Positions 7,198 through 45,678 of a DNA stretch of 64,000 bases are shown in pieces. How positions within the stretch are numbered: position 1 is the first letter of the stretch; every line of letters starts with the position of its first letter. The DNA comes from Paracandidimonas soli. GTDB lineage: Bacteria > Pseudomonadota > Gammaproteobacteria > Burkholderiales > Burkholderiaceae_B. The notes beneath the pieces were generated by a model. The model ran no database searches. It was not told the DNA's origin and worked only from the letters and a program-made list of their open reading frames with translations. The DNA is taken from positions 158,995 to 222,994 of the forward strand of contig NZ_SMBX01000006.1 in the NCBI RefSeq assembly GCF_004342005.1, read 5' to 3'. The position numbers and the translations under genes were made by a program.

Positions 7198-7211
7198 GCG
7201 TTTCTCCCGTC

Positions 7212-32453: not shown

Positions 32454-33383
32454 TCAGGGCTGGCTGGTACGCTGGAAGGCGCTATGCGTCGATATGAGCA
32501 GCGGCAGCATCAGGATGAGTATGGCCAGCAGACGCATCACGATGATCTGGCTCACCTGCATGCCATCGGCCAGATTCAGTTGACCGCTCCAGGCGAAAGT
32601 CATGAGCCACAGGCTGAACGCCAGCGTCAGCAGGGAAGTGGAAAAAACGGAGTAGCGCGCGGCACACCAGAGCAGCGCCAGCAAGGGAAGCAGCGTCATG
32701 GCCTCGGGCGTGCCGATATGGATGCCCAGGACGGCAAGGGCGCACAGCAAGAACAGGGGCAGCAGATTACCCTTCGAGCGCGTCCCGTACGGCGCTGGGC
32801 TCCTGAGCAGTTCCCGCCATCGGGACGGGTCGGGGATGGTCAGCATGGCGGGCAATATGGCGATGAAGTTCAACAGCTCGTTGCTGAACCACAGGCTGAA
32901 GCCGGCCAGCGACGATAGGCCGATGATGAAAGGGGCCGAGCCGGCGCCCGCGATAGCCCCCGCCAGTGCGGCGCCTATCGAAATCACGACCAGGCGCAAC
33001 ATGGAGCTGGGCTGCGCCAGCTTGCGATGGATGGATGGTTGCATCTGGGATAGAAGATAGCCTGCGGCGATACCCACCATGTGCGATGAAGTCAGCCACA
33101 ACGTGGACAGCATGGTGCTTTCGACGATCAGGTCCGCGATGCACAGGCCGGCTGTAGCCGCCAGCCAGCCATGGATATCAGCTAGCCGCGGCCAGCGCAG
33201 GAACAGGCCGAGCAGCAGGGCGTTGGCGGGCCAGAACAAGGCCAGCGCGCCATGGGGGCGCGTCAGTATGCCCAGCAGCGCCGCAAGCAGCGCGCAGCAA
33301 AAGACCAGGATGGTTTCGCCCGCGATCCGCCATTCGGTCGGAGGAGTGGGGGCGTGCGGTGGATTAGTGTGCGTGCTGTGCAT
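32454..33383 (-). CDS. MASE1-like membrane sensor domain without output domain
   Basis: This 309-residue protein is membrane-embedded, with about eight helices. FWPANALLLGLFLRWPRLADIHGWLAA matches the MASE1 pattern (cited in part), followed by SHMVGIAAGYLLS and GFSLWFSNELLNFIAILPAML. MASE1 normally carries a GGDEF, kinase or similar output domain; here the frame stops straight after the last helix at 32454 with SAFQRTSQP. ATG at 33383 is chosen because upstream codons are AT-rich and unrelated. It may be a stand-alone sensor or a truncated one. It is the last chromosomal gene before the prophage. Confidence 0.7.
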   Translation of the reverse strand: MHSTHTNPPHAPTPPTEWRIAGETILVFCCALLAALLGILTRPHGALALFWPANALLLGLFLRWPRLADIHGWLAATAGLCIADLIVESTMLSTLWLTSSHMVGIAAGYLLSQMQPSIHRKLAQPSSMLRLVVISIGAALAGAIAGAGSAPFIIGLSSLAGFSLWFSNELLNFIAILPAMLTIPDPSRWRELLRSPAPYGTRSKGNLLPLFLLCALAVLGIHIGTPEAMTLLPLLALLWCAARYSVFSTSLLTLAFSLWLMTFAWSGQLNLADGMQVSQIIVMRLLAILILMLPLLISTHSAFQRTSQP

Positions 33384-33662
33384 GATGAAAGCAAAGAGGG
33401 CCCGGCATACATGCTTTGCATACTGATAGCTGACAGTGCGCTGCATGTTCCATATAAAGTGGAAATCAACTGACGTTTTGTTACTTTTGAATTTCTGTTG
33501 CTTTACAAAATTTGACGTAGGCTCAGGAATCAATCCCTGCCGTTTTGCGGAAGGGCAGATGACTTGGTATTGCTATCAAATGAAACACAATGTTTAATTT
33601 TATATGAACAATATTTCCTTGCGTGCAAGGTGATGGAATTTTTATGCGGGCGAAGACAGCAT
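33384..33662. other. AT-rich intergenic stretch before the tRNA gene
   Basis: This is clearly lower in GC than the surroundings, with no coding frame I believe in. It holds a short palindrome CCTTGC-GT-GCAAGG (33617-33630). The low GC may reflect old transfer near the tRNA integration hot spot. Confidence 0.4.
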
Positions 33663-33692
33663 TTGGCGCGACAGAATGATTTCTGCTATGAT
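33663..33692 (+). promoter_or_regulatory. promoter of tRNA-Ser
   Basis: TTGGCG (33663-33668), an 18-bp spacer and TATGAT (33687-33692) precede the mature tRNA 5' end by about 40 bp. Confidence 0.55.
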
Positions 33693-33733
33693 GCTCGACT
33701 ATGCTGAAATCGCAACGGTTCCGGCGTAGTCGC

Positions 33734-33824
33734 GGACAGGTGGCAGAGTGGTCGAATGTACCTGACTCGAAATCAGGCGTACGTGATAAGCGTACCGTGG
33801 GTTCGAATCCCACCCTGTCCGCCA
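33734..33824 (+). tRNA. tRNA-Ser(CGA)
   Basis: The acceptor stem GGACAGG/CCTGTCC, a long serine-type variable arm, the T-loop GGTTCGAATCC, discriminator G and an encoded CCA are all present. The anticodon loop CTCGAAA gives anticodon CGA (reads UCG). The 91-nt length with the extra arm is typical for tRNA-Ser. The phage integrase gene ends 15 bp after the CCA, marking this as the attachment site. Confidence 0.97.
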
Positions 33825-33838
33825 TTTAGTCAATGATA

Positions 33839-34909
33839 TCAAGCTGCTACGGCAACAAGGGCGCAATCCTCGTTGCCGTTTTTTTGTGCTTGCTCTTGGT
33901 CGTGTGACCAAAACGTGACCGCCCCGGCGTGGCTGGCTAAGTGGCTGGGAGCCAGGTGTGCGTACTTCATCACCATCTCCAGCGTCTCCCATCCTCCCAA
34001 CTGTTGCAGCACCAGCAAGGGCGTTCCTGCCTGTGCGTGCCAGCTTGCCCAGGTGTGCCGGATGTCGTGAAACCGGAAATTCTGGATTCCCGCATCGGTG
34101 ACCGATTGGCGGAACATACGGTCATCGCCACCGCGAATGCGCCGACCGTTGCGCATAAGCACGTAGCGCCCGTCAGCGCCTTTCCTGCGCTGCAGGACGG
34201 CCATGGCATCATCGTTTAGTGGGATCGTGCGTGATCGTCCGGACTTCGCCCGGTCGGCATCAACCCAGGCCGTTCTGGCTGGTAGGTTCACGTGAGACCA
34301 TTCCAGCCCGTAGATTTCATCCTCACGCATGCCTGTGGCGAAACCCAAAATGCAGGCGTCGCGCAGCCATTCTTGCGGAACGGTCTGGATCAGCTTTGCG
34401 GCCTCGCCACGTGGTATCCAGCGGACGCGGCGTTTAGGCTCCGGCAATGCTGGCAACTGCGGCGCCCGGGCAATCCAGCCCCAGGCGGCGCACATGTTGA
34501 GCATGGTGCGGATGCAGGCCAGGTAACGGTTCTTTGTTGCTGGCGTCAGCGGTTCCGGGCCACGCTTCTTGTACGTCTTGTGAGTGGGCAGGGCGTCCAG
34601 CACGTGAGCGGTCGAGATATTGGCAACCGGTATTCGGCCTAGGTGTTGCCGCCAGTATTCAACGTAGCGCACCTTGGACTCGTAGTCGGCTTGTCCTTCG
34701 TATGCCGCCAGAAATCGTAGTGCGGCCTCGTCGTAGCTGCGGTCGGCCTGTTCGCCTAATTTATGTTGTCGCCAGAGCTGGGCTTTCAGGCGGTCGTGAT
34801 ATTCCTGCGCTGCTTTTTTGTCCGGCGTGCCAGTAGAGCGTCTAATTCGCTGGCCGCTTGGCGTGCGGAAATCGATCCACCAAACCCCATTACGTTGTCG
34901 GATTGGCAT
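33839..34909 (-). CDS. int: phage tyrosine integrase
   Basis: This 356-residue recombinase has an N-terminal arm-type domain (MPIRQRNGVWWIDF), a SAM-like core-binding domain and a catalytic domain. All active residues are visible: R195 in TGMRED, K222 in AKSGR, H281-x-x-R284 in HDIRHTWASW, W307 in LGGW and nucleophile Y316 in VMKYAHL. It catalyses attP/attB exchange at the adjacent tRNA-Ser. The upstream xis-like frame overlaps its first 124 bp. Confidence 0.97.
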   Translation of the reverse strand: MPIRQRNGVWWIDFRTPSGQRIRRSTGTPDKKAAQEYHDRLKAQLWRQHKLGEQADRSYDEAALRFLAAYEGQADYESKVRYVEYWRQHLGRIPVANISTAHVLDALPTHKTYKKRGPEPLTPATKNRYLACIRTMLNMCAAWGWIARAPQLPALPEPKRRVRWIPRGEAAKLIQTVPQEWLRDACILGFATGMREDEIYGLEWSHVNLPARTAWVDADRAKSGRSRTIPLNDDAMAVLQRRKGADGRYVLMRNGRRIRGGDDRMFRQSVTDAGIQNFRFHDIRHTWASWHAQAGTPLLVLQQLGGWETLEMVMKYAHLAPSHLASHAGAVTFWSHDQEQAQKNGNEDCALVAVAA

Positions 34910-35121
34910 GTGTCTGTACTCCTGTGCGTGCCAACCGACGCTATCCGAGTGACGTTGTAGCGCGGCTGGCTAAGTTCCGCAAGCCTGGATGGCCAGATCC
35001 TCCAGATACGGGATCCGGGCAGGCGGAAGCCCAACTCATGGCGGCGGGCAAAAATTGTTTGATAGGAAAGGTTCAGCCGCTCGGCGGCTTCTTTGAGGGT
35101 GAGGGCTTTTTCGTCGTTCAC
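34786..35121 (-). CDS. excisionase-like HTH protein
   Basis: This 111-residue basic protein starts at a GTG (35121) with GGGAGG 6 nt upstream. The N-terminal half is an AlpA/MerR-like winged HTH (LTLKEAAERLNLSYQTIFARRHELGF) of the excisionase type. The C-terminal half runs for 124 bp in a different frame over the start of int, like but longer than the lambda xis-int overlap. It probably bends attachment-site DNA to favour excision. Regulated with the rest of the PL operon. Confidence 0.75.
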   Translation of the reverse strand: MNDEKALTLKEAAERLNLSYQTIFARRHELGFRLPGSRIWRIWPSRLAELSQPRYNVTRIASVGTHRSTDTCQSDNVMGFGGSISARQAASELDALLARRTKKQRRNITTA

Positions 35122-35123
35122 GA

Positions 35124-35252
35124 TCAACCTCCCGGCAGATGCCGATCCAGGCGGCGAATCGCCGCATCGCAGAGCTTGCGCAGGCCCATCAACGGCCCCA
35201 TAAGCATGATCCGGGCGGCGGTGCCGAGCACCCATTTGGCGTCTGATTTCAT
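35124..35252 (-). CDS. small phage protein, 42 residues
   Basis: ATG at 35252 to TGA at 35124-35126 encodes a short basic peptide starting MKSDAKWVLGTAARIMLMGP with an amphipathic, partly hydrophobic middle. It sits tightly between neighbours: the start overlaps the preceding gene's stop region and the end is 2 bp from the xis start, and its final codons carry the xis Shine-Dalgarno. It could be membrane-active. Not recognised. Confidence 0.55.
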   Translation of the reverse strand: MKSDAKWVLGTAARIMLMGPLMGLRKLCDAAIRRLDRHLPGG

Positions 35253-35554
35253 TGTTCGCTCCCTGCCGCCCGTGCGGCAAGTTCGCCGGCGAGAAAGTCG
35301 TCATAGTCCCGGCCTTCGGCGTGGGCGCGAATCCAGCGCTCATACTCGGCGGCCACCTCGGCGTTTGTGGAATCCTGCCAGCTGACCTGGGCGGCGATGT
35401 TGTTCCGCTCGATCTCCTGGCCAGCATCGATGCCAGCGCGCCAGTCTGGTTGCTGTTCTGCTCTGAGCGCCTTGATCTCGGCTGCAGCCTCCCGCATGAT
35501 GTCGCTTGTGGGAGTGGCGAGAAGGCGGTCTACGATGTCCGCTTTTTTACTCAT
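35249..35554 (-). CDS. hypothetical phage protein, 101 residues
   Basis: This acidic, helical protein (MSKKADIVDRLLATPTSDI; AAEIKALRAE; a segment SWQDSTNAEVAAEYERWIRA) resembles the short ead/Ea22-like accessory proteins of phage early operons in composition. I cannot assign a family. Its start overlaps the ParB-like gene stop by 8 bp, so it is co-translated. Confidence 0.65.
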   Translation of the reverse strand: MSKKADIVDRLLATPTSDIMREAAAEIKALRAEQQPDWRAGIDAGQEIERNNIAAQVSWQDSTNAEVAAEYERWIRAHAEGRDYDDFLAGELAARAAGSEQ

Positions 35555-36830
35555 GATGGGCCTCCTTCTGTTGCGGAATAAGCGGCCTGGTGCTCGGGTT
35601 GAGCTCCTCGCGCAGCCATCGGTAAAGGTGACGGCAGGCCTGCTGTGTCCTGTTGTGGTCTGGGTGCCTTTTCATGGCGTCGATAATGACCTCTTCCAGG
35701 TTCCGGGCGGCAGATAACAATGCGGCAGTTGCCGTCGAATAGGCCGGATCTGAAAGTGATGGGTAGCTTCCTCCGCCTCCGCCGGTGGGAAGCGAGTAAT
35801 TGACGCTGCTGCGCCAGCAGTCGTTTCTCCTCGCTATCCTGATTTCAAGCGCGGAGTTGAAAATTGGAGGGCTGTATATCGTCGCAACATCGACAAAGAC
35901 ACCGTGCTCGTTCGGTTGCATTTCTGGAACTATGCGCTCCCACTCCGAATTGCATTCATTGTGGTACCTCATGAGCTCGGCCAGGTGTTCGTCTATCCTG
36001 AGCAGGTCAATCGTTGATAGCTGCAAAATGCCTTTGCCGAAAGCTGGTTCTATTTCCTTTGGCGGCGTGGGCTGTTGATCATCAGGTTCTGCTGCAGGTG
36101 GCGATGAGGTGCGGGGTGGCGTCGGCAAGTGTTTTTTTGTTGCCTTCGACTTACCAGCGTCATGCGCAACCCTGACTGCCTCCTGCAGGCGCTTGGCTGC
36201 GGCCTCCGGATCGCTGCGCAGCTCTTGCATGGCGAGCGTGGCCGCGACCTGGCCGCTTGATACCAGGTCGCGGATGGGCTTCTCTGCGCCGACCAACAAC
36301 AGCAGGCCGTCGATGTAGTTCTTGCTGAATCCCAAGCGCTGCGCGATGGTTTTTTCGTCCAGGCCCATGCCGAGCAGCCGTTTGCACACCATGCCGATTT
36401 CCATCGGCGCGAGCGGCCGGCCTTCATTTGATTTCACGAGCGCTACTGTCAGGTCCTCCATCGAGGATCCTGCAGGCTTGATCACAACCGGCACGGTCTC
36501 TATGTTGTGGCCGCGCTCAATGGCACGCATGACGGCAGCAAGGCGGGTGTGTCCATCAATGACATAGATGATGTTCTCGCCGTCTTTGCGGGCCACGTAT
36601 CCGGCAATGGGGCGGTCAGAGTAGTAGCCGTTTTCGATAATCGATAGCGTGATCGACTCGATGTGCTCATCGTATTCCGGCGTATTCTGCCGTACGTTGA
36701 AGCCTTCCATGACATGCAGCAGTCGGGGATCGACTTGCCAGAGATCTGCCGATCTTGCGCCAGCGGACTTCATGGCTGCTTTTGTATTGCCACGCGCAGG
36801 CGCCGTGGTCAGATCGAGTTCAGCGTTCAT
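35547..36830 (-). CDS. ParB/Srx-fold DNA-binding protein
   Basis: This 427-residue protein has an N-terminal ParB-like domain (about residues 35-125; FNVRQNTPEYDEHIESITLSI and YVIDGHTRLAAVMRAIERG). The HTH region reads MGLDEKTIAQRLGFSKNYIDGLL, then come a proline-rich linker (TPPRTSSPPAAEPDDQQPTPP) and an unrelated C-terminal domain with a GGGGGS stretch. No parA is present, so plasmid-type partition is unlikely; it may be a nuclease-like or regulatory ParB paralogue. It overlaps the reverse transcriptase stop by 11 bp and is thus translated directly after it. Confidence 0.8.
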   Translation of the reverse strand: MNAELDLTTAPARGNTKAAMKSAGARSADLWQVDPRLLHVMEGFNVRQNTPEYDEHIESITLSIIENGYYSDRPIAGYVARKDGENIIYVIDGHTRLAAVMRAIERGHNIETVPVVIKPAGSSMEDLTVALVKSNEGRPLAPMEIGMVCKRLLGMGLDEKTIAQRLGFSKNYIDGLLLLVGAEKPIRDLVSSGQVAATLAMQELRSDPEAAAKRLQEAVRVAHDAGKSKATKKHLPTPPRTSSPPAAEPDDQQPTPPKEIEPAFGKGILQLSTIDLLRIDEHLAELMRYHNECNSEWERIVPEMQPNEHGVFVDVATIYSPPIFNSALEIRIARRNDCWRSSVNYSLPTGGGGGSYPSLSDPAYSTATAALLSAARNLEEVIIDAMKRHPDHNRTQQACRHLYRWLREELNPSTRPLIPQQKEAHHE

Positions 36831-37929
36831 GCTGTTTCCTCCGGTAGACTTTGGATATGTCGCCTGCCACGCAGTGGCCGCGACGGCGTAGAGTGTTTGC
36901 GATGCGGGTGGCGTCAGCGTGGCCGTGGGATGCCTGACTGGTCAGCCCTAGATAGCTGTTCCCGGCCTCGAACAGATTCACGGAAGGCATCGACCGCAGC
37001 CGAGAAACGGCAGCATTGGCAGTCCTGGGGCGTACGGTGCGCCGCCACGGCCGGATCACCTGGCCGACGAAATCAATGCCGTGCTCGATGGGCTGCAGGA
37101 CGGTTTTCGTCGGGTTAATGAACAGGCGCAGGCGCTGCGTCAGGAACTCCTGGATGAGCTCGTATGCCTCCAGCAGGTACGCTGGAGACTCGTGCAACAG
37201 AATGAAGTCATCCACATAGCGCACGTATCTGCAGCGCAGCTGGTGCACCACAAACTGATCCAGGGCGTTGAGGTGGACATTGGCTAGAAACTGACTATCG
37301 AGGTTGCCGATCGGCAGACCATGATCGTCAGGCGCGTTGAACAAGCTCTTGTGGGGCGGCACCAGGTCCAGATTGCCGCGCACGTCGACGTTCGTGCGTG
37401 GGTCGTGGAACAGGATGGTTTCGGCTAGGTCACGCCACCATCCCCGCGGCAGCTTTTCGCAGAGCTGGCCGAATACGATTTCCTTGCTGATGCTGACGAA
37501 AAAGTTACTCAGATCGCACTGCAAGAAAAATGCGCGCTTGCTCCAGTTCTGCGTGATGCTGCGCACGTCGCTCTCCAGGCGCGTAGCAGCATAGAGCGTG
37601 CCTCGGCCAGGGATGCAGGCCGAGCTGCCAGCGACGAAGCCGGCGATAAAGCGGGGCGCGACATGGTTGTAGAGCAGGTGATGAACGACGCGATCACGAT
37701 AATCTGCTGCCCACACCTCCCTTGGGCGCGGCCTGGTGATGACAAAGCAGGTCGATTTCCCGGGCCTGTATCGGCCTGAAATCAGATCCTGGTGCAGCTC
37801 GTACAGGTTGCGCTCCTGGTGCAGCTCGAACGCGATAGCGCTCTTGGTGTTGCGCTTGCGGCGGCGGCAGTCGCGATGGGCTGTCACCACATCGCAGAGT
37901 GCGGGTTGGGTTGAATCTGCGGACGGCAC
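36820..37929 (-). CDS. DGR reverse transcriptase
   Basis: This RT is of the diversity-generating-retroelement clade: ADYRDRVVHHLLYN, ACIPGRGTLYAA, first catalytic Asp in FFLQCDLSNFFVSI (D139), the DGR-specific GLPIGNLDSQFLANVHLN in place of the QGxxxSP of other RTs, and the YVDD box (238-241) in RYVRYVDDFILL. It copies TR RNA into adenine-mutated cDNA. The start is uncertain: homology begins near residue 10, and GTG 37929 (inside the TR 3' end) or GTG 37890 fit; the frame is open to 38193 but that part is TR and spacer. No maturase or endonuclease domain. Confidence 0.95.
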   Translation of the reverse strand: MPSADSTQPALCDVVTAHRDCRRRKRNTKSAIAFELHQERNLYELHQDLISGRYRPGKSTCFVITRPRPREVWAADYRDRVVHHLLYNHVAPRFIAGFVAGSSACIPGRGTLYAATRLESDVRSITQNWSKRAFFLQCDLSNFFVSISKEIVFGQLCEKLPRGWWRDLAETILFHDPRTNVDVRGNLDLVPPHKSLFNAPDDHGLPIGNLDSQFLANVHLNALDQFVVHQLRCRYVRYVDDFILLHESPAYLLEAYELIQEFLTQRLRLFINPTKTVLQPIEHGIDFVGQVIRPWRRTVRPRTANAAVSRLRSMPSVNLFEAGNSYLGLTSQASHGHADATRIANTLRRRGHCVAGDISKVYRRKQHER

Positions 37930-38017
37930 GGACACGGCCTGTGTTGTTCTTGTTGTTGATGTTCTGGTTGCCGTTGTTGAAGGACTGGTACCAAGCGTTG
38001 TGGGCCGAGTACTGCGT
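37914..38017 (-). repeat. DGR template repeat (TR), 104 bp
   Basis: It aligns without gaps to 38594-38697 (VR1) and 40235-40338 (VR2). By hand count, VR1 differs at 10 and VR2 at 12 positions, and every one is an adenine on the coding (minus) strand of TR; 15 of its 32 adenines differ in at least one VR and none of the 72 other bases does. Translated in the VR frame it has nine AAC codons (SFNNGNQNINNKNN). The invariant 3' part is GC-rich (GGCCGTGTCCGTGCCGTCCG). It lies between avd and the RT gene, as in known DGRs. Confidence 0.97.
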
Positions 38018-38189
38018 TTATTCGCGCAAAACACGTCGCCGGACCGAAGGTTATTACCGATCAGTTCGGAAACTGCGCCAGACCTGCCCTGACTGCTGCC
38101 AGCGGTATCTGTGATGCGCATGGCACCGGCCTTGTGAGCCGATGGCGCGACCAGATTCAAGTTGCGTACTGTCGTGACGGCCATGGCGA

Positions 38190-38546
38190 TCACGCTCCTG
38201 ACGCATTGCGTTGTTGGCTACGCCGCCATCCGCCGGCCTGGTTGCCGACCCTCGCGCATACATCGGCCGCACGGGCATACTGCCTGTCAGACAGAATTCC
38301 CTCATCAAGGGATAGTCGGAACAGGATCTCTGCAACGTGCAGCTGCTCCAGCAGCTCGTCGAGGATCTCGATCTTGCGCCGCGCTGCGTTCGCCCTGGCA
38401 ATGAGAACAAGCATCGACAGGCATGCGTCGTTGATGCGCGTGGCGATGCCTCGTTGATGCCTCGGATAGTGCCTGGTCAGGGATGCAGACATACGCAAGA
38501 GATCTTGCGCCAGCTTGTATACGGGTAGGTGGTTGTGGATAGCCAT
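38190..38546 (-). CDS. avd: DGR accessory variability determinant (Avd)
   Basis: This 118-residue helical protein of the Avd four-helix-bundle family shows LPVYKLAQDLLRMSASL, then INDACLSMLVLIARANAARR and ILFRLSLDEGILSDRQYARA, ending GNQAGGWRRS. Avd forms a basic pentameric barrel that binds the RT and template RNA and is required for mutagenic cDNA synthesis. ATG at 38546 begins right before the conserved LPVYK; a GTG at 38564 is an alternative lying inside a hairpin. No clear Shine-Dalgarno. The stop is 172 bp upstream of TR. Confidence 0.93.
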   Translation of the reverse strand: MAIHNHLPVYKLAQDLLRMSASLTRHYPRHQRGIATRINDACLSMLVLIARANAARRKIEILDELLEQLHVAEILFRLSLDEGILSDRQYARAADVCARVGNQAGGWRRSQQRNASGA

Positions 38547-38554
38547 AGCGGTAA

Positions 38555-38571
38555 TCGGCGCCACGCGCCGA
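38555..38571 (-). promoter_or_regulatory. hairpin just downstream of VR1
   Basis: A 7-bp stem TCGGCGC/GCGCCGA with a 3-nt loop lies 10 bp past the variable-protein-1 stop codon. In BPP-1, a hairpin or cruciform at this position after VR promotes retrohoming. It may equally affect avd translation, because it covers the avd leader. Confidence 0.5.
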
Positions 38572-38580
38572 ATAACTAAA

Positions 38581-39177
38581 TTACTGAATGATTAATCTGC
38601 GGACGGCACGGACACGGCCTGTGCTGCTCTTGTCGATGATGCCCTGGTCGCCGTCGCTGAAGGACTGGCACCAAGCGTTGTGGGCCGAGTACTGCGTGCT
38701 TGTCCAGTACCAGGTCTTTTGGAACAGGTGCCGGCAGGTCGCTCGGCATAGCGAGGATTCGGCCTGGGCCATCAGATACCAGTCGGCGAATTGATCACCG
38801 GCATTGGCCTGGTGGATTGCCTGCGCAGCCGGGTGGTCATGCTTGGAATCAACAAGGGCGCGAGTATTGGCCCGGCCGTCCCATATTGATGTCGCTCCAG
38901 GCTCTTCCTTTCCATATGCTCCCCAGGGCTGGTCCCCGATATCCGTGGCCTCGGGGCCGACGATCAGGTGATAGAGGGTGCCGTCGTCTCCGCGCATGAT
39001 GCCTGCGTAGGTGCCGCCCTGCTCGGGCCAGTTCTGGCCCGGCAGGGGAACATTGAGCAGGGCCGGATCCGGACTGGGGTTAAGATCTGGCGGTGGGGGA
39101 GAGATAATGGCCAGCAATTGGCGCAGCAGGTCTTGATCTGCCTCGATGCGTGTGGTGCTTTCGATAACGGTAGTCAT
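38581..39177 (-). CDS. DGR variable protein 1 (DUF1566/C-type-lectin-like)
   Basis: This 198-residue soluble protein has a helical N-terminus and proline linker (ISPPPPDLNPSPDPALLNVP), then a DUF1566-type C-type-lectin fold with TYAGIMRGDDGTLYHLIVGP, WGAYGKEE and TWYWTSTQYSAHNAW, ending VRAVRRLIIQ. The last third is VR1; residues at the mutable codons are N167, C170, S174, D175, D177, G179, I181, D182, S184, S185 and T186. ATG 39177 follows AAGGAG; the longer frame to 39270 lacks one. No signal peptide. It overlaps or abuts the kinase gene. Likely a displayed ligand-binding protein; target unknown. Confidence 0.92.
   Translation of the reverse strand: MTTVIESTTRIEADQDLLRQLLAIISPPPPDLNPSPDPALLNVPLPGQNWPEQGGTYAGIMRGDDGTLYHLIVGPEATDIGDQPWGAYGKEEPGATSIWDGRANTRALVDSKHDHPAAQAIHQANAGDQFADWYLMAQAESSLCRATCRHLFQKTWYWTSTQYSAHNAWCQSFSDGDQGIIDKSSTGRVRAVRRLIIQ
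38594..38697 (-). repeat. DGR variable repeat 1 (VR1)
   Basis: This is the 104-bp counterpart of TR with 10 substitutions, all at TR adenines: nine A to G and one A to T on the coding strand. Identity with TR stops just before the stop codon on the 3' side (after CGCAGATT) and at the STQY codons on the 5' side. Confidence 0.96.
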
Positions 39178-39178
39178 G

Positions 39179-39838
39179 TCACTCTCCTTGTCGTGAGCGT
39201 TCGTCGGTGCGGTCGATGAGAGTGCGCACTGACAGGGACGCCAGGCGCACGATGGAATCGTTGTTTTCAATGGTCGCGTCGGTATGAATCAGGCCGACTT
39301 CCGTTTCTGACTGGTGATCAGCACGCGCAGCGTCAGCGGAATTTCGCTGGATCATCCATACGTCTCCGTCGTAGTGACGGATCAGGTCTGCTTCGTTGGT
39401 GAAGCGGACATCGGTGACGATGATTCGGCGGAATCCGCGGCGCATTGCGTCGTTGATTTTTTCTGCGGCACGGTCCAGCCAGTAGGCTGGGTTTTGGGCG
39501 CGGCGGTACTCGGTGCCCCACCAGCGCATGATTTCCCTCGGGGTCCTGGCGGCGCTGATGTTCTCGCCCCTGGATGACATCAGGCGGATGAAGTCCGCGT
39601 CAGCGCATCGACCGATAGCCAGGCCGATGGTTTTTTGCTCCTTGTCCTCCCTGCTGAAAATGGCAGGATCCACGCCGAAGCTGTGGACGATTTCCGCCCG
39701 GACGGCATCGGCGAATGCCAGCCGATAAAAACTAAATGCTTCGCACAGAATGTCGGCGCAAGTGTCCTTGCCTGCGCCGGCTCTGCCGCAAAGGCCCAGG
39801 ACCATATATGGCCCCTCGTTGTAGGGTGTTGGTTTCAT
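39179..39838 (-). CDS. deoxynucleoside monophosphate kinase-like P-loop protein
   Basis: The 219-residue P-loop kinase has Walker A GLCGRAGAGKDT (residues 15-26), a basic LID-like region and RRIIVTDVRFTNEADLIR near residue 150, as in T4 gp1-type phage dNMP kinases and DUF-class adenylate-kinase relatives. It phosphorylates dNMPs to raise dNTP supply in other phages. ATG 39838 is the first Met before the conserved core. It lies between the two DGR target genes and ends next to the VP1 start, so it shares their transcript. Identification is by motif only. Confidence 0.8.
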   Translation of the reverse strand: MKPTPYNEGPYMVLGLCGRAGAGKDTCADILCEAFSFYRLAFADAVRAEIVHSFGVDPAIFSREDKEQKTIGLAIGRCADADFIRLMSSRGENISAARTPREIMRWWGTEYRRAQNPAYWLDRAAEKINDAMRRGFRRIIVTDVRFTNEADLIRHYDGDVWMIQRNSADAARADHQSETEVGLIHTDATIENNDSIVRLASLSVRTLIDRTDERSRQGE

Positions 39839-39845
39839 TGTTCGC

Positions 39846-40040
39846 TCAATCAATGTCGCCGGCGGCGAGTCGTTTGTGATCGATGGGCGGCGACTTTTTG
39901 CGCTGCTTTTCCAGCGCAATCGCCGTGTTGCGGAGGGCCAGGGCGAGGGCTTTTGACTGCAATGCCGCGGCCAGACTTAGGTTGATGCCCGATACGCGCA
40001 GCGCCTCTATGAGCTGTTCGCGGGTGGCATCGGGCCGCAT
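39846..40040 (-). CDS. small phage protein, 64 residues
   Basis: A basic helical peptide (REQLIEALRVSGINLSLAAA, then KALALALRNTAIALEKQRKK). It starts one base past the stop of the membrane peptide gene and ends 7 bp before the kinase ATG, so it is translationally linked in the leftward operon. Not recognised; no HTH is evident. Confidence 0.6.
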   Translation of the reverse strand: MRPDATREQLIEALRVSGINLSLAAALQSKALALALRNTAIALEKQRKKSPPIDHKRLAAGDID

Positions 40041-40041
40041 G

Positions 40042-40197
40042 TCAGAACCCCACGGCAGCGCCGATGCTCATGACGATGTAGAGCCCGTACAGGACTACAC
40101 CGGCTGCGGCGACAGCGGTTGGGGGGATATCGTCCTTTTCGGACTTGCGCATCGATACCTGGTACCAGATGCGCTGCAGGCGTTTGAGCAGACTCAT
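40042..40197 (-). CDS. small membrane protein, 51 residues
   Basis: ATG 40197, preceded by GGAGGG at 6 nt, encodes a basic N-terminal half (MSLLKRLQRIWYQV) and one C-terminal transmembrane helix (AVAAAGVVLYGLYIVMSIGA). It lies 24 bp after the variable-protein-2 gene in the same operon. The single helix with positive cytoplasmic end could be a superinfection-type or holin-like membrane peptide, but no family is recognised. Confidence 0.7.
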   Translation of the reverse strand: MSLLKRLQRIWYQVSMRKSEKDDIPPTAVAAAGVVLYGLYIVMSIGAAVGF

Positions 40198-40221
40198 GGC
40201 AAGCCCTCCGGAATGACTGAA

Positions 40222-40713
40222 TTACTGAATAATTAATCTGCGGACGGCACGGACACGGCCTGCGTAGCTCTTGTAGTTGATGACCTGGAGGCCGTTGAGG
40301 AAGGACTGGAACCAAGCGCTGTGGGCCGAGTACTGCGTGCTGGACCAGTACCAGTCGTCGGTCTGGAAGAGGTGGGGGACCGTTGCCCAGCACAGCGCGA
40401 GTTCGCGTTGGGAGGGGAGGTAGAACGGGGCGGATTCGTTGCCAGCGTTGAGTTTGGAAATTAGTTCCAGAACATCAAGGTCGGAATCGGATGCCACCAG
40501 TTCCTGTGTGTTCAGGAGGCCATCCCAGCGGGAGGATGCGCCGTTGATGGATTTGCCGTAGCAGCCCCATTCGGAGACATCGGTATCCGTGGCGGGGTCA
40601 TTGGGAACCACCAGGACGTACCGTGTGCCGTCGTCGCCACGCATGATGCCTGCGCTGGTGCCTTCGAGTTCGGGGACGGCCTGTCCGGGGAGATAGATTT
40701 GCGGTGTCTGCAT
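40222..40713 (-). CDS. DGR variable protein 2 (DUF1566/C-type-lectin-like)
   Basis: This 163-residue paralogue of variable protein 1 aligns along its whole length: TSAGIMRGDDGTRYVLVVP, WGCYGKS, SSRWDGLLNTQELV and DWYWSSTQYSAHSAW, ending VRAVRRLIIQ. It lacks the N-terminal helix and proline linker of its partner. VR2 codons give S132, F135, L139, N140, L142, V144, N146, Y147, S149, Y150 and A151. ATG 40713 has AAGGAG upstream. It is the first gene after PL, so it should be the most strongly transcribed when CI is lost. Confidence 0.92.
   Translation of the reverse strand: MQTPQIYLPGQAVPELEGTSAGIMRGDDGTRYVLVVPNDPATDTDVSEWGCYGKSINGASSRWDGLLNTQELVASDSDLDVLELISKLNAGNESAPFYLPSQRELALCWATVPHLFQTDDWYWSSTQYSAHSAWFQSFLNGLQVINYKSYAGRVRAVRRLIIQ
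40235..40338 (-). repeat. DGR variable repeat 2 (VR2)
   Basis: This is the 104-bp counterpart of TR with 12 substitutions, all at TR adenines (coding strand: four A to G, six A to T, two A to C). VR1 and VR2 differ from each other at 13 positions, so they diversified independently from the same template. Confidence 0.96.
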
Positions 40714-40834
40714 GACAGCTCCTTGATGTCAGATCACCACCTGCACCCGGTGTAAGGCCCCGGTTCTATCGAATACCCTGAAGATGTGAATGAAGTGCCA
40801 GGATGCCAACACCTGGCTGCAGGTGATGGTGACT

Positions 40835-40877
40835 ATAGTAGCAAGTCGCTACTATACAGTCAACAGCGAATTGCTAC
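40835..40877 (-). promoter_or_regulatory. leftward early promoter PL with two CI-type operators
   Basis: On the minus strand TTGACT (40858-40863), a 17-bp spacer and TACTAT (40835-40840) form a good promoter. The spacer is filled by the perfect inverted repeat ATAGTAGC-AAGTC-GCTACTAT (40835-40855); a second, weaker site CAGCGAATTGCTAC lies at 40864-40877. The same motif recurs three times between cI and cro. PL would transcribe variable protein 2 through avd, RT and int. Confidence 0.85.
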
Positions 40878-41051
40878 CAATTGGGCGAAATAAGGGTAAA
40901 CCATGGATCTTCGAAGAGAGTCCAGGCCTAACAAGGCTGAGTCTGTGACGTTGGCTGGGCCAAATGGGGGGGAATCGTGGACCCGATCTCGTTGTTTTAA
41001 GTTGTTTTGATCGGGGTTGTGTGGGTTGGAATCGTCGGTATTTAGGTGCGG
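40878..41051. other. region between PL and the cI stop
   Basis: No convincing gene is seen. An inverted repeat CCCGATC/GATCGGG with a 20-nt loop containing two GTTGTTTT-like repeats (40980-41015) may end cI transcription. Confidence 0.35.
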
Positions 41052-41780
41052 CTAAAAGTCTTCGCTACGCCAGACTTTCAATACACGACCGAACACCTCC
41101 ATGTCCATGTCGGACTGGATGATCCAGTCTCTGTATGCTTGATTCTCGGAAATTGCGAGTAGGCCGGTGCCTGGTACGCGTTGTAGTCGCTTGATAAAGC
41201 CTTCATCCCCAACCCGGAAGAAGTAGACAGCATCGAACTCGACGGACTTCACGCCGGCATCAACTATCAGCGGATCCCCTGGATTGAACATCGGGCGCAT
41301 GCTGTCACCAAATCCGGTCACCACACACAGGTTCCGCGCGGAGGTAAACCCTCGGACGTTCTTCTCGAGCCACTCTTTGCTGACGTCTAAGCGCTCAATT
41401 ATTCCCGGCTGATCGCGCAGAATTGTGCCTGTCCCCATAGATCCCCCAGTGTTGTACCGGGTAATCGTAACAATTCCTGTTTTTTTATCCAGTAGGGAAA
41501 GCCCCGGAATTGTCGCTGTTTCGTTTGTTGCGTCAGCGTCCCATAGCTCCGGGTGTGGCAGGTCAATCCAGTACGGATCGTGCCCTAGCGCTCTTGCTAT
41601 CTTGGCTGCTACCGAGTCACCCAGTTTTCTTGGGTTTTTATCCTTGCCGCTCTGAAAGCCCTGGACAATTTGCTCTAAGTACTTCTTGCTGCACTCTGCT
41701 CGTTCTGCCAGTGCGGCCGTGCCTCCGAAAAATCGGATGGCGTACTTGAGGTTGTGCAGGCGAATTTCTCTATTGTCCAT
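41052..41780 (-). CDS. CI-type phage repressor (self-cleaving, LexA/S24 type)
   Basis: This 242-residue repressor has an N-terminal HTH (FGGTAALAERAECSKKYLEQIVQG) and a C-terminal S24 autoprotease/dimerisation domain. The catalytic Ser160 is in TGFGDSMRPMFNPGD and Lys197 in EGFIKRLQR; cleavage should be triggered by RecA, giving SOS induction. ATG 41780 fits the family; an upstream in-frame Met at 41798 would overlap the operator. Its likely operators (GTAGC-N5-GCTAC) flank it on both sides. Confidence 0.93.
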   Translation of the reverse strand: MDNREIRLHNLKYAIRFFGGTAALAERAECSKKYLEQIVQGFQSGKDKNPRKLGDSVAAKIARALGHDPYWIDLPHPELWDADATNETATIPGLSLLDKKTGIVTITRYNTGGSMGTGTILRDQPGIIERLDVSKEWLEKNVRGFTSARNLCVVTGFGDSMRPMFNPGDPLIVDAGVKSVEFDAVYFFRVGDEGFIKRLQRVPGTGLLAISENQAYRDWIIQSDMDMEVFGRVLKVWRSEDF

Positions 41781-41790
41781 ATCTTCTAAT

Positions 41791-41860
41791 AGTAGCAATC
41801 AGCTACTCGCTGGCATACCAGCAATTCGCTGTTGACGGAACGGTAGCGAGTCGCTACCAT
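41791..41860 (+). promoter_or_regulatory. right operator region OR and promoter PR
   Basis: Three operator-like inverted repeats are seen: AGTAGC-AATCA-GCTACT (41791-41807), CAGC-AATTC-GCTG (41819-41831) and GGTAGC-GAGTC-GCTACC (41842-41858). PR reads TTGACG (41832-41837), a 17-bp spacer, TACCAT (41855-41860), with the third operator between -35 and -10, as at PL. Lambda-like layout of three right and two left operators. Confidence 0.88.
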
Positions 41861-41867
41861 AGGTGGC

Positions 41868-42068
41868 ATGAGCACATTGTCCGACCTTTATTCCAAAGAG
41901 GGACCTTCTCTCTTTATCAGGCTCCACGAGGCTACTGGAGCGAACCCGAAATACCTCTACCAAATAGCGGTGGGTATTCGACGGCCTTCGCCCGACATGG
42001 CCCGTCGCTTAATTAAGGCTGAGCCGTCATTGACGCTCGATGGGCTCTTATTCGAAGGGCGTTCCTAA
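41868..42068 (+). CDS. cro: Cro-like repressor
   Basis: This 66-residue single-domain HTH protein has FIRLHEATGANPKYLYQIAVG (helix-turn-helix, about residues 16-36), followed by RRPSPDMARRLIKAEP, like YdaS/Cro proteins. It is the first gene from PR, opposite cI, where Cro is expected. The ATG is 7 bp from the -10, so the leader is very short or absent. Confidence 0.88.
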   Translation: MSTLSDLYSKEGPSLFIRLHEATGANPKYLYQIAVGIRRPSPDMARRLIKAEPSLTLDGLLFEGRS

Positions 42069-42250
42069 TGGCAGATTCCTACCGTCTGGGGCGGTTCTTC
42101 GTTTTTATTTTGATAGTCCTCCAAGTCAAGCGACTGGAAGACGGAGCAAAGCAGGTCATCGGAAACATGATTTCTTCCAGTGATCTGCATGCAGATTTCA
42201 GCGGCTTTGCGCATTAAGCGTTCTGTCCGTGTGGTGGTTGCGGGGGTCAT
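42065..42250 (-). CDS. hypothetical protein antisense to the PR leader region
   Basis: A 61-residue frame on the minus strand (ERLMRKAAEICMQITGRNHV, SDDLLCSVFQSLDLEDY) with AAGGAG 7 nt before the ATG at 42250 and an acidic, helical make-up that looks like real protein. It lies between cro and the cII-like gene, opposite to them and overlapping the cro stop by 4 bp. Function unknown; it might be expressed in the lysogen. Confidence 0.6.
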   Translation of the reverse strand: MTPATTTRTERLMRKAAEICMQITGRNHVSDDLLCSVFQSLDLEDYQNKNEEPPQTVGICH

Positions 42251-42355
42251 AGGTTGGCTCCTTGTTTGGCGGAGATGGCTGAGGGGCCATCGATGTCAGC
42301 AGTGTGCGCCGATGCATACGCATTGGCACGCAGCGTTTTTTGCAGAGGGTTGCAG

Positions 42356-42673
42356 ATGATTGATTCGTCGAATTCAGTTCCAACAAAACCCCGGCTCACG
42401 GTCGAGCGTGTCCTGCGTGACGCGCTGACCGACCCGCGCCGACGGGACGCCATCAGCACGGCCGCTGGATGGAAAGATGCGTCCAGCGCCAGCAGTAGGG
42501 TGCTATCCGGTCAGCAAGGACTCCAGCTCGACCGACTAGATGCTGTGCTGCTAGCGGCCGGCCTGACCGTCGTGACGCCCGGTTATCTGGACTGGCTGTC
42601 CAAAGGTGCCGTGATGGGCGCGAACTGCTGGTGCGAACGAAATTCCATGGGTGCGTGCGGTGCGAACTGGTGA
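42356..42673 (+). CDS. CII-like phage regulator
   Basis: A 105-residue protein starting at ATG 42356 with GAGGG upstream; the helical core TVERVLRDALTDPRRRDAISTAAGWKDASSASSRVLSGQQG (in part) followed by LDRLDAVLLAAGLTVV matches the layout of lambda CII (a HTH and position after cro). It would activate lysogenic promoters. Sequence similarity is only suggestive. Confidence 0.6.
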   Translation: MIDSSNSVPTKPRLTVERVLRDALTDPRRRDAISTAAGWKDASSASSRVLSGQQGLQLDRLDAVLLAAGLTVVTPGYLDWLSKGAVMGANCWCERNSMGACGANW

Positions 42674-42974
42674 ACGGCATATAGAGCGTCGGTCTCCTGG
42701 GAGGCCGATCGGAGAAGTCGCGGAATCCATCCTTGAGGCGCTGCGTGAGCATCCGCGCACGGTGAGGCAATTGGCGCTTAAGCTGAAGTGCGCAGTCCCT
42801 GTCGTGGATGAGTCATGCCGGCGCCTACGTGCCGCAGAACGCATCAAGGTTGCCGAGCTGGTGCGCGTCGAGGGGTCGAACCGAAGAGTTGCGGTCTACC
42901 AGATAGCAGAGGATGGCAGCGATGCAATTCCTGCCCCATCCCTACTTTTCGGGGGGCGGCATGGCAGACGATAA
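42651..42974 (+). CDS. winged-helix DNA-binding protein (early region)
   Basis: This 107-residue basic protein shows IGEVAESILEALREHPRTV, then RQLALKLKCAVPVVDESCRR and LRAAERIKVAELVR, ending in a strand pair, the pattern of a winged helix. The start is a GTG at 42651, overlapping the cII-like end by 23 bp. Its end overlaps the primase start by 14 bp. Possibly a replication-initiation helper like an O-type N-terminus; not recognised further. Confidence 0.65.
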   Translation: MRAVRTGERHIERRSPGRPIGEVAESILEALREHPRTVRQLALKLKCAVPVVDESCRRLRAAERIKVAELVRVEGSNRRVAVYQIAEDGSDAIPAPSLLFGGRHGRR

Positions 42975-45348
42975 ACTGGATTTTCAAGGGATCGCGGACG
43001 CTGCCCTGAACCGCGCCGAGGAGCTTGTGGCTGATTGGCTGCCGAACGGCAATCGTGCGGGGCATGAGTGGCGGTGTGGAAACCTGCGGGGTGATGCGGG
43101 CCGCTCACTGTCGGTCAATCTGAGTACAGGCGTGTGGGCGGACTTTTCGTCTGGAGAGAAAGGCTCCGACCTGATATCTCTGTACGCGGCAATCCATACA
43201 GGCAACAACCAGGGCCAGGCCGCCAGGGAACTGTCGCAACGGCTGGGTGTGGTTGGCTCGTCGTCTCCTGCTAAAAAAAATCCTGTGCGCAAGTCGTCCG
43301 AGTGGTCGCCGATCCTGCCTGTGCCTCCTGGTGCATCAATCCCGCCAGTTGCGCATGCAGTCCGAGGGCGTCCCTCCCATACATGGGCCTACAAGGACTC
43401 GGCCGGCGCGATCCTGGGCTACATCCATAGATTCAACACGTCGGATGGCGGGAAAGAGGTCCTGCCGTGCGTGTATGCCCAGGACAGCACAGGACGCAGG
43501 GATTGGCGTTGGATGCAGTTTCCGGTACCGCGCCCGCTCTACGGACTGCATGATATGTCCGGTCGCGACTATGTCCTGGTGGTCGAGGGTGAAAAGTGCC
43601 GCGATGCGGCGGCAGCGGCGTTTTCGCATGTTTACGATGTCGTGTCCTGGCCCGGCGGCGGTAAAGCAGTCAGCAAGGCCGACTGGAGTCCGCTGGCTGG
43701 CAGGAAGGTCATCATATGGCCGGATTGCGATGCCAAGGTCGACAAGATCTCTGGCGATCTGCTGCCGGAGATGCCGGAGAAAGGCCGGCAGACGCAGCCG
43801 GGCATCAAGGCCGCCGAGGATGTCGCAAATATCCTGCTGGGGATCGGTTGCGTCGTCAGGATCATCAAGGTGCCTGCGCCAGGCGCGGTTGCCGACGGGT
43901 GGGATGTGGTCGATGCATTGGACGATGGCCGGACCCCGGACGAGCTGCTGGCCTGGATTCGTGCGAACTTGAGAAAGCCGCAATGCCAACAGGATCCGGA
44001 TCCAGTCTCCGGCATTCCTGATCAGGATCACGTTCCCGACTCTGCCTCTACCCCTGGACCCGCTGACGCGGACAGATACTGGAAGGATTCGCTCATCTGC
44101 CGGCCCAGGGGCGGCTTTGAGGACTGCAAGGAGAATGTCGCCCTAGCCCTGGAGCGATGCCCGGAGCTGCGCGGCATGGTTGGTTTCAATGAGTTTTCCG
44201 GGCGGATAGAAAAGCTGCGGCAACCGCCCTGGGACAGCGTGCCGGGAGAATGGACCACGGACGATGACCTGGAGTTGAGCATGTGGCTCGGTACCAGGGC
44301 CGGGCTCCTGTTTCGATCGACAGGCACGATCAGCGAAGGCGTGCGCCTGGTCGCAACTCGGAACAAATACCATCCAGTACGCGAGTATTTGATGGCGGTG
44401 GAAAAACGCTGGGATGGGCAGGAGCGTAACAGCCTATGGTTGCATCGTTATCTCGGCGCCGAGGAAAACGAATACACGGCCCTGATCGGCCGGTTGTGGC
44501 TACGCCAGGCGGTTCGACGCGTGCTCTATCCTGGCTGCAAGGCCGACTACGTGCTGATCCTGGAGGGTAGCCAGGGCGCCGCCAAATCCACGTCACTACG
44601 CGTCCTGGGCGGAGAATGGTTCTCCGATGCGCCGCTGGACATGAACAACAAGGATGCGTATCAGCAGATCTTCGGTGTCTGGATCTACGAGATCGCAGAA
44701 CTCGACGCGTTCAATCGCGCCGAGGCGACGCGAATCAAGGCCTTCCTGACGCAGAACAACGACAGGTATCGGCCTGCCTATGAGCGCAGAACCATCACAC
44801 AGCTGCGCCAGACAGTGTTCGCTGCTACGACCAATTTTTACGAATACCACAAGGATCCGACAGGCAACCGGCGATTCTGGTCAGTGCTGTGCGGGAAGAT
44901 CGACATACCGGCCCTGCAGCGCGACCGGGACCAGCTGTTCGCGCAGGCGGTAGCCGAGGTGCTGGCTGATGAGCGTGCGTACCCGACGCGTCAGGAGGAG
45001 CAAACACTGATCGTTCCCGAGCAGCAGATGCGCGAGATTGTCGACCCTTGGATGGAGGTGATTGCGATCTGGCTCAACGAACCGGAGCAGGCCATAAAGA
45101 GCCGGTTCACGTCCGCAGACATTCTCATGGGCGCGATCAAGATGGAGATCTCCAAGATTGACGGGCAGCGCTCCGCAACCACCCGTGTCGGCTCCATCAT
45201 GATGCGCCTGGGCTGGCGGAAGATCCGTGAGAGCGGTGGATTGCGGACGTATTTTTATGTGCGGCCGTCAGTGCCGCCAGCGCAACAGCAGGCCGGCAGC
45301 GACAGCCGGTATTCGATGGTGGATGAGGATGCTGATCTGCCTATCTGA
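42961..45348 (+). CDS. phage primase-helicase (Toprim-like + VapE/VirE domain)
   Basis: This 795-residue replication protein has an N-terminal part with EWRCGNLRGDAGRSLSVNL and GEKGSDLISLYAAI. A Toprim-like block (YVLVVEGEKCRDAAAAAF; VIIWPDCDAK) follows, with a C-terminal virulence-associated-E helicase domain with P-loop LEGSQGAAKSTSLRVLG (about residue 535) and later VFAATTNFYEYHKDPTGNRRFW. Such proteins initiate phage DNA synthesis. ATG 42961 follows a run of Gs. A repeat-rich region, a likely origin, lies directly downstream. Confidence 0.9.
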   Translation: MADDKLDFQGIADAALNRAEELVADWLPNGNRAGHEWRCGNLRGDAGRSLSVNLSTGVWADFSSGEKGSDLISLYAAIHTGNNQGQAARELSQRLGVVGSSSPAKKNPVRKSSEWSPILPVPPGASIPPVAHAVRGRPSHTWAYKDSAGAILGYIHRFNTSDGGKEVLPCVYAQDSTGRRDWRWMQFPVPRPLYGLHDMSGRDYVLVVEGEKCRDAAAAAFSHVYDVVSWPGGGKAVSKADWSPLAGRKVIIWPDCDAKVDKISGDLLPEMPEKGRQTQPGIKAAEDVANILLGIGCVVRIIKVPAPGAVADGWDVVDALDDGRTPDELLAWIRANLRKPQCQQDPDPVSGIPDQDHVPDSASTPGPADADRYWKDSLICRPRGGFEDCKENVALALERCPELRGMVGFNEFSGRIEKLRQPPWDSVPGEWTTDDDLELSMWLGTRAGLLFRSTGTISEGVRLVATRNKYHPVREYLMAVEKRWDGQERNSLWLHRYLGAEENEYTALIGRLWLRQAVRRVLYPGCKADYVLILEGSQGAAKSTSLRVLGGEWFSDAPLDMNNKDAYQQIFGVWIYEIAELDAFNRAEATRIKAFLTQNNDRYRPAYERRTITQLRQTVFAATTNFYEYHKDPTGNRRFWSVLCGKIDIPALQRDRDQLFAQAVAEVLADERAYPTRQEEQTLIVPEQQMREIVDPWMEVIAIWLNEPEQAIKSRFTSADILMGAIKMEISKIDGQRSATTRVGSIMMRLGWRKIRESGGLRTYFYVRPSVPPAQQQAGSDSRYSMVDEDADLPI

Positions 45349-45426
45349 TCTCTCTATCGGCGCGAAGCCGGTCAACCTGACGCACAACCAGGGATGGGTG
45401 GCGATGAGACGCGTGCGCGCGTTTCC

Positions 45427-45676
45427 GTCTAACCCGAAAAGGTTGGCCGTCAGGTTGGACGGCGGAAAGCCGCATAAACATTGGCCCCGTCCAACCTCCT
45501 AACCTTTTCTCGGATTTCCTACGCACATGCGCATACGTGTGCGCGTAACGTGCGTGCGCACTGTTTTCGATCTGTATTTATTTTTTTACTGGTAATGGTT
45601 AGGAGGTTGGACGGGGCCAATGTTTATGCGGCTCTCAAGCGTCTAACCCTCCTGTCCAACCTTTTTGAGGTTAGAC
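45427..45676. repeat. 37-bp inverted repeat and GGTTGGAC repeats, putative replication origin
   Basis: Arms 45468-45504 and 45597-45633 are perfect reverse complements over 37 bp, 92 bp apart. The octamer GGTTGGAC occurs four times in alternating orientation (45453, 45489 reverse, 45605, 45654 reverse), and GTCTAACC three times (45427, 45641, 45669 reverse). An AT-rich patch (TATTTATTTTTTTACTGG) lies in the spacer. No credible gene is here. Placed right after the primase-helicase gene, this looks like an origin with iterons; a transcript hairpin is the alternative. Confidence 0.55.
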
Positions 45677-45678
45677 GA

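Follow-up and report, generated by a model that had tools for sequence, protein, structure and literature searches.

The window analyzed here is a stretch of 64,000 nucleotides (nt) of Paracandidimonas soli (assembly GCF_004342005.1, contig NZ_SMBX01000006.1, positions 158,995–222,994; all positions below are in window numbering). It carries a diversity-generating retroelement (DGR) in which a reverse transcriptase (RT) and the protein Avd are encoded next to a template repeat (TR), and two target genes end in the variable repeats (VRs) VR1 and VR2 (Table 1). The interval of 172 nt between avd and the TR is occupied by a member of the RNA family RT-15, which overlaps the end of avd by 17 nt and has its 3′ end in the first bases of the TR. 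The DGR itself is ordinary; its RNA architecture is the variant part. The reading considered probable here is that of a prophage DGR whose RT-15 leader, directly upstream of the TR, pairs with the TR 3′ end through a short helix, termed the clamp, which likely sets up self-primed, adenine-mutagenic copying in the manner of a retron.

Table 1 Features of the retroelement and its surroundings, in window numbering; aa, amino acids; ORF, open reading frame
Feature	Positions	Strand	Remarks
DGR span	36820-40713	(-)	order: target gene 2 with VR2, kinase gene, target gene 1 with VR1, avd, TR, RT
RT ORF	36820-38193	(-)	candidate starts GTG 38193, ATG 38184, ATG 38121
TR	37914-38017	(-)	104 nt, 32 A
RT-15 RNA (RF03018)	38015-38206	(-)	160 bits, cut-off 82, model 1-192
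Clamp 5′ arm UUGAAUCUG	38152-38160	(-)	in leader; unpaired in Rfam model
G directly 3′ of 5′ arm	38151	(-)	in UCUGGU; candidate primer
Clamp 3′ arm CAGAUUCAA	37911-37919	(-)	last 6 nt of TR and 3 nt beyond
avd	38190-38564	(-)	phrog_3206 5.3e-25
Target gene 1	38581-39177	(-)	198 aa; phrog_4245 4.3e-29
VR1	38594-38697	(-)	compared with TR: 10/32 A differ, 0/72 other bases
Target gene 2	40222-40713	(-)	163 aa, Lcl_C/DUF1566-like; phrog_4245 1.9e-24
VR2	40235-40338	(-)	compared with TR: 12/32 A differ, 0/72 other bases
Deoxynucleoside monophosphate kinase gene	39179-39838	(-)	between the two targets; DNMK 6.5e-15, phrog_139 1.7e-42
Possible DNA hairpin CGGCGC-GTG-GCGCCG	38556-38570	(-)	23 nt after VR1; by eye from sequence
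tRNA-Ser	33734-33824		
Integrase	33839-34909		
S24-type repressor	41052-41780		

Components of the retroelement

The original prediction, made from the sequence alone, had described an RT with the motifs IGNLDSQ and YVDD, both of which are present. The best PDB match of this RT is 8ub7, an RT of 328 aa (E = 1.3e-32), which we take to be the bRT of BPP-1, compared with 2e-9 for the best group II maturase match; the score of 46.6 bits against retron_St85_RT (cut-off 235) is not that of a retron RT. A placement in retron or group II clades, named beforehand as evidence against a DGR, was not seen: the best match is a DGR-type RT, and a tree built without retron or group II rows (described below) places the RT among others with adenine-specific TR/VR pairs. 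The predicted Avd is borne out by its PHROG match, though its scores fall short of the curated cut-offs of NCBIfam (54.2 against 80) and of Pfam bAvd (38.9 against 40).

The TR has the length first given for it, and each target ORF carries its VR at the 3′ end, as described. The likeness of the targets to Lcl_C/DUF1566 remains below the Pfam cut-off (29 and 23.7 against 34.9), and a low-confidence model of the product of target gene 1 (mean pLDDT 62.5) is nearest to the Lcl C-terminal domain 8q4e (Foldseek 3.5e-5, TM score by target 0.63). Both VRs end in the common block ...CCGTGTCCGTGCCGTCCGCAGATT, and the TR contains nine AAC codons when read in the VR frame, as had been noted. All 22 differences between the TR and its VRs fall on TR adenines, in agreement with the earlier alignment by hand; for both VRs pooled, 22/64 adenine sites are changed and 0/144 others (Fisher test, p = 2.5e-6 for VR1 and 1.3e-7 for VR2). 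A search of the genome assembly with the TR (E ≤ 0.001) gave three matches, namely the TR, VR1 and VR2.

Variation of VRs at non-adenine sites, which the original prediction would have counted against itself, was not seen in related loci: in 258 TR/VR pairs among the matches listed, 3223/7713 adenines differ compared with 383/18054 other bases (131/8680 C, 148/5956 G and 104/3418 T). These pairs were scored in a base-neutral manner, as were all loci found by sequence pattern (see below); the TR finder used for 24 RT-15 loci penalizes non-adenine mismatches, and the TR search in the sister clade, in BPP-1-type loci and in phages outside the group favors adenine mildly. At L045 and L046, two loci with distant RTs (35–36% identity), a convincing adenine-specific TR was not found. 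Judged by its RT, its Avd, its adenine-only TR/VR differences, the 3′-terminal position of its VRs and the mostly adenine VR differences of its relatives, all of them sequence features, the element is a DGR. A second DGR-like RT is present in the same genome (locus L047, G000:C10, minus-strand ORF 6305–7612), with a TR of 121 nt at the RT 5′ end and one other copy that differs from it at 16/27 adenines and 1/94 other bases.

The RT-15 leader and its predicted pairing with the template repeat

The RT-15 match of the window is full-length. In Rfam the family, presumably named after its vicinity to RTs as the name itself suggests, is typed as a small RNA gene in which the UUGAAUCUG segment is unpaired, whereas here it would be the leader of a template RNA, with the partner of that segment lying beyond the model. 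RT-15 scores above the cut-off in 11/11 RT-related loci scanned, from 16 that were fetched (L005, L009, L011, L012 and L016 were left out), and in 12/14 further loci, those without it being L027 and L028, with distant RTs. In all 24 RT-15 loci (23 and the window; L006 and L015 are apparently duplicates of the same locus), the TR starts at most 3 nt from the RT-15 3′ end as defined by at least one VR, and each locus has two or three VRs.

The association was also tested independently of the RT, by running two RT-15 sequence patterns over viral contigs and adding pattern-bearing loci from sampled genomes. This gave at least 145 distinct loci, the window's own being L053, of which 97 have at least 1300 nt on both sides. 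Among the matches listed, 91 of these 97 have avd upstream, an RT downstream and one or more VRs; of the 97, 90 have at least two VRs; the six exceptions are L075, L108, L157, L191, L200 and L208, of which L108 has avd and three VRs with no RT match and L157 has avd with no close RT. In sampled whole genomes RT-15 is above the cut-off in 9/399 of the order and 3/398 of the phylum, the genome studied here being counted both times, and in 0/14 control genomes.

Named phages with the same arrangement of RT-15, TR and two or three VRs are Burkholderia phage Magia, the Pseudomonas phages Cruim01, LPPA56, Haboob and SC_8, and Shewanella phage QDWS, the RTs of which share 53–57% identity with that of the window. 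A kinase gene lies between the targets in the window; none is named there in these six records, in which many genes are unnamed and SC_8 is almost unannotated. The Magia record marks possible DGR targets and the Cruim01 record carries an RT-15 annotation, so the co-occurrence of RT and RT-15 was already visible to others. In the open-access literature searched, no paper was found on RT-15 together with a reverse transcriptase, the 2017 paper defining RT-15 lying outside that search, and a link of DGRs with RNA structure, Rfam, retrons or priming is made in no title or abstract start among those listed; the terms 'RNA structure' and 'secondary structure' are absent from the main text of two DGR surveys (PMC6642488, PMC8144416).

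The leader segment ...UUGAAUCUGG, unpaired in the Rfam model, can form nine pairs with CAGAUUCAA in the window, and the resulting 9-bp clamp is complete in both the minimum free energy (MFE) and the centroid folds of the window RNA. From sequence, the leader is predicted to base-pair with the 3′ part of the TR, and covariation across loci supports the clamp. The motif UCUGGU, which holds the G directly 3′ of the 5′ arm, is unchanged in 23/23 distinct sequences; since the scan pattern fixes AATCTGGTCG, this invariance was counted only on sequences not selected by that motif.

The covariation lies in the column d=6, just outside the TR. A shuffle test used 144 loci (5 were missed) with 124 distinct segment pairs, among which, in the matches listed, d=6 is paired in 87.9% (42 G-C, 38 C-G, 20 U-A and 9 wobble pairs), compared with a mean of 43.7% (standard deviation 4.3) and a maximum of 58.1% in 1000 shuffles. 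Relatedness was taken into account through a single tree model and through representatives, the trees being quick searches. On an RT tree of 114 out of 133 RT-bearing loci (those with a clean anchor, identical rows being counted once), and again among the matches listed, d=6 is paired in 107/114 despite at least 20 changes on the 5′ side and 18 on the 3′ side; when the 3′ column was simulated to evolve independently at a matched rate, the mean was 49.8 and the maximum 88, and 0/1000 simulations reached 107. Counts of independent pairs are few (3, 11 and 3) and point in the same direction or show no difference, never the opposite, being mostly too few for a significant sign test. The unconstrained MFE folds of the 114 loci contain, among the matches listed, at least four of eight clamp pairs in 65. 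Furthermore, the TR pairs with the leader more often than the VR does, at d=6 (93% vs 55%), d=7 (86% vs 40%) and d=8 (67% vs 18%), which indicates that, beyond the TR/VR identity, the partner of the leader is the template RNA itself. A clamp defined as AAUCUG:CAGAU alone was rejected, as it shows no covariation where TR ends vary and the signal resides in the column outside the TR.

A sister clade of RTs, comprising Bacteroides phages F1 and F2 and their relatives (about 35% RT identity to the window), provides a comparison. RT-15 gave no match at the gathering cut-off in F1, the only sister-clade locus scanned. The avd–TR leader has at the matching site GUUAUCUGUG:UGCAGAUAAC in F1, F2 and L213, and further clamp candidates are UUUCCGUAA:UUACGGAAG in L214 and L215 and UUUCUUUUA:UAAAAGAAA in L217. 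From 80 loci found by RT alignment and two phage records, 78 were tried (L222, L252, L253 and L272 were left out for short upstream DNA) and 66 gave a TR, with TR/VR differences at 859/2204 adenines vs 77/4449 other bases; 53 of these were distinct. For 35 representatives whose TR tails differ from one another in 5 or more of about 20 nt, pairing of each leader with its own tail exceeds that with permuted tails only around −206 to −135 from the TR end: the leader windows −194 to −159 (own score 15.00 vs 12.68, standard deviation 0.43) and −182 to −147 were matched in 0/1000 permutations, two adjoining ones in 12 and 11, and eight others in 372–980, and ten windows on the 3′ side are null (206–967/1000). 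By this sequence comparison, the sister clade shows the same clamp, written in other sequences.

Loci of the BPP-1 type served as a control, in which 75 of 80 were used (L314, L324, L340, L358 and L375 were left out), 67 had a TR and 26 representatives were retained. Neither on the 5′ side (16 windows, 70–917/1000) nor on the 3′ side (ten windows, 248–942) does any window stand out. In single-locus clamp tests on the 5′ side of ten named phages outside the RT-15 group, only VP58.5 stood out (5/300), with Bacuni_F1 at 58/300; a 5′ clamp was not borne out by the larger control of BPP-1-type loci. In an RT tree of 53 chosen rows, of which 19 RT-15 rows were drawn at random and joined by L053 and the rest were selected by hand, a branch (support 95.4) separates the RT-15 rows (99.7) and the sister clade (100) from the BPP-1-type rows, whose own grouping is unsupported (4.7), and from two other RTs that have adenine-specific TR/VR pairs.

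Several observations weigh against this reading of the leader and its clamp. Nine other columns tested on the tree in the RT-15 clade gave 187–991/1000, so that d=6 alone is beyond chance; d=5 is paired in only 63/114 loci and is a column in which pairing is more frequent for the VR than for the TR (86% vs 56%). In 49/114 MFE folds fewer than four clamp pairs form, and for the window itself shuffled leaders equal the clamp in 9/300 cases and the total folding energy is no better than that of shuffles (z = −0.14). The TR 3′ end deviates from CAGAU in 7/24 loci without a full matching change in the leader, so the helix would be shorter or mismatched there (in this comparison the rows of the window and L010 carry a wrong anchor). 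Individual sister-clade loci are significant in only 11/53 cases (at most 5/100 shuffles), the helices being weak in much of the clade, and AAUGGG often takes the place of UCUGGU after the arm. The pattern of spared adenines is equally unhelpful for locating the primer. Relatives (103 loci, 205 pairs) have 41–47% of adenines changed at −100 to −21 and 4/71 at −20 to −1, and 13/205 at +1, yet 51/205 at +3 near the repeat end. By sequence, a VR 3′ block with spared adenines, resembling an initiation of mutagenic homing (IMH) element, is present, and sparing over the last ~21 nt of the TR fits such a block; because it extends that far into the TR, it was rejected as proof of the priming site.

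Comparison with BPP-1 and retrons, and the proposed priming of cDNA

BPP-1 is the best-studied DGR. It shares with the window an RT (28.8% identity, tblastn), Avd and a VR at the 3′ end of mtd, and its TR/VR differences are adenine-biased (18/25 adenines, 4/109 others), compared with adenine-only differences in the window. In BPP-1 the TR follows directly after avd (2668/2669), and 144 nt holding RF03022 ('Phage_DGR') separate it from brt. The window differs in having a structured RNA 5′ of the TR, a leader–TR clamp, and two targets with a kinase gene between them. The 'mtd-avd-TR-brt' layout of the original prediction is therefore right in its gene order and overlooks both the avd–TR stretch, which belongs to an RNA family already described, and how little spacer there is between TR and RT; the element is a DGR, but it lacks the BPP-1 layout, since its structured RNA lies on the opposite side of the TR.

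The conserved RT region used as query begins at 37887, about 26 nt from the TR, and across RT-15 loci this distance has a median of 32 nt (5–95%: 16–44, n = 118). To the same region it is 199 nt in BPP-1, 154–339 nt in eight other phages outside the group and 55 nt in Bacuni_F1, and in 67 BPP-1-type loci the median from TR to RT start is 148 nt (140–169). No match to RF03022 at E ≤ 1 was listed for positions 33000–46000. A 3′ spacer hidden within the RT gene was considered and rejected: in 113 complete genes the synonymous variation of the first 60 codons is 0.82–1.03 of expectation, vs 0.70–1.06 in the rest, and as it is not lowered there is no sign of a hidden spacer there. On these sequence distances, room for a BPP-1-sized 3′ spacer before the RT is absent. 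In Bacillus phage BalMu-1 (L064, 3277–3420), the orphan RNA RT-14 (RF02921) begins at the TR 3′ end, and in that one locus it accordingly looks like a DGR RNA on the 3′, BPP-1-like side.

The RT frame of the window is open through the TR and most of RT-15. Since it is open for at least 100 nt upstream of the TR in 88/118 loci, compared with 4/118 and 3/118 for the other two frames, the TR may, on sequence grounds, also encode a Thr-rich RT N-terminus; annotated RT ORFs span the TR also in phages ACA1, VP58.5 and phiARM81mr. Dual coding was rejected as the main finding, because the RT frame closes inside the TR in 25/118 loci, and coding through the TR is thus common but not obligatory.

According to PMC12875486, bRT-Avd is recruited in BPP-1 by the structured spacer 3′ of the TR, with an adenine inside the RNA acting as primer at the TR 3′ end. 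In retrons, as described in PMC6868368, the msr 5′ end pairs with the msd 3′ end in a stem that contains the priming G or ends just 5′ of it. The RNA described here resembles the retron msr-msd RNA in its order of 5′ arm, G, structured domain, template, and 3′ arm pairing with the 5′ arm; a retron-type clamp around structured domain and template is present by prediction and covariation. Unlike a retron, it belongs with a DGR RT, has Avd and has as its template a TR with VRs, and 2′-5′ priming is here only proposed.

The clamp is inferred to prime synthesis of complementary DNA (cDNA). RT-Avd would bind the RT-15 leader, which would do the job of the BPP-1 spacer from the other side of the TR, and the clamp would bring the invariant G of UCUGGU and the 3′ end of the TR side by side, so that the 2′-OH of that G, or of a neighbor, could act as primer. 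A cDNA with random bases opposite adenines would then replace VR1 or VR2 and diversify two possibly lectin-like proteins. The chances appear evenly balanced for a broader form of this proposal, in which there are two DGR RNA architectures, the one found here being permuted relative to BPP-1 and retron-like, with RT-15 as template leader and the 2′-OH of a branch-point G priming a branched RNA-cDNA, and in which DGRs and retrons share this design or have converged on it.

A different role for the same RNA elements is possible, though doubtful: the clamp and RT-15 could fix the TR 3′ end and stop the cDNA at the TR 5′ edge, with nicked VR DNA as the primer. The RT-15 domain does adjoin the TR 5′ edge, where cDNA should end, and target priming is the older proposal for BPP-1 (PMC3240598); however, BPP-1 is now described as self-primed from spacer RNA (PMC12875486), and a clamp on the TR 3′ end in two clades would fit priming better than stopping. 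It is improbable that the element is a DGR of the ordinary BPP-1 type, with RT-15 as a regulatory RNA unrelated to it or as the 5′ untranslated region of the RT. As RT-15 overlaps the end of avd and lies in the RT frame at many loci, it could control RT translation, but its ending at the TR edge in 24 loci and its pairing with the TR 3′ flank speak against an unrelated RNA, as do a TR–RT gap too short for a BPP-1-sized spacer and the lack of such pairing in BPP-1-type loci. Least probable is that the pairing signal comes from a leader that recognizes its target by pairing with VR DNA or cDNA: the core CAGAU is common to TR and VR, and d=5 favors the VR, yet the column that covaries and its next two outer neighbors fall outside the TR/VR identity and pair more with the TR.

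Under the preferred reading, in which the leader and clamp prime copying, the orphan family RT-15 gains a role, and the template RNA of DGRs would not be of one design, an RT group with two subclades having a structured RNA before the TR that is tied to the TR 3′ end. The initiation step becomes directly testable, and DGRs become linked to retrons in a simple way by their anatomy. A BPP-1-like spacer should accordingly not be assumed 3′ of every TR in DGR annotation or in mutagenesis tools.

Prophage setting

The tRNA-Ser and the integrase probably mark one end of the prophage, and genes for primase/helicase, terminase, portal, head, tail and tape measure continue beyond the repressor to at least 61007; the window end coincides with the contig end. 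With the integrase on one side and the repressor on the other, the DGR lies in the integrase–repressor arm, away from the tail genes. An integrase is found downstream on the same strand in 4/5 annotated RT-15 phages (Magia, Cruim01, QDWS and LPPA56), and a named repressor upstream on the same strand in 2/5 (Magia and Haboob). No near match was found in plasmid records. No hairpin or cruciform is evident after VR2 in the sequence read by eye.

Two inverted repeats lie outside the retroelement. The long one at 45456–45646 scores 48.1 bits against the MIR7724 microRNA model (cut-off 100) and is probably a genuine long hairpin that resembles the model by chance. The other, of 43 nt (84%; 40833–40875 and 41820–41862), flanks the S24-type repressor gene and is operator-like.

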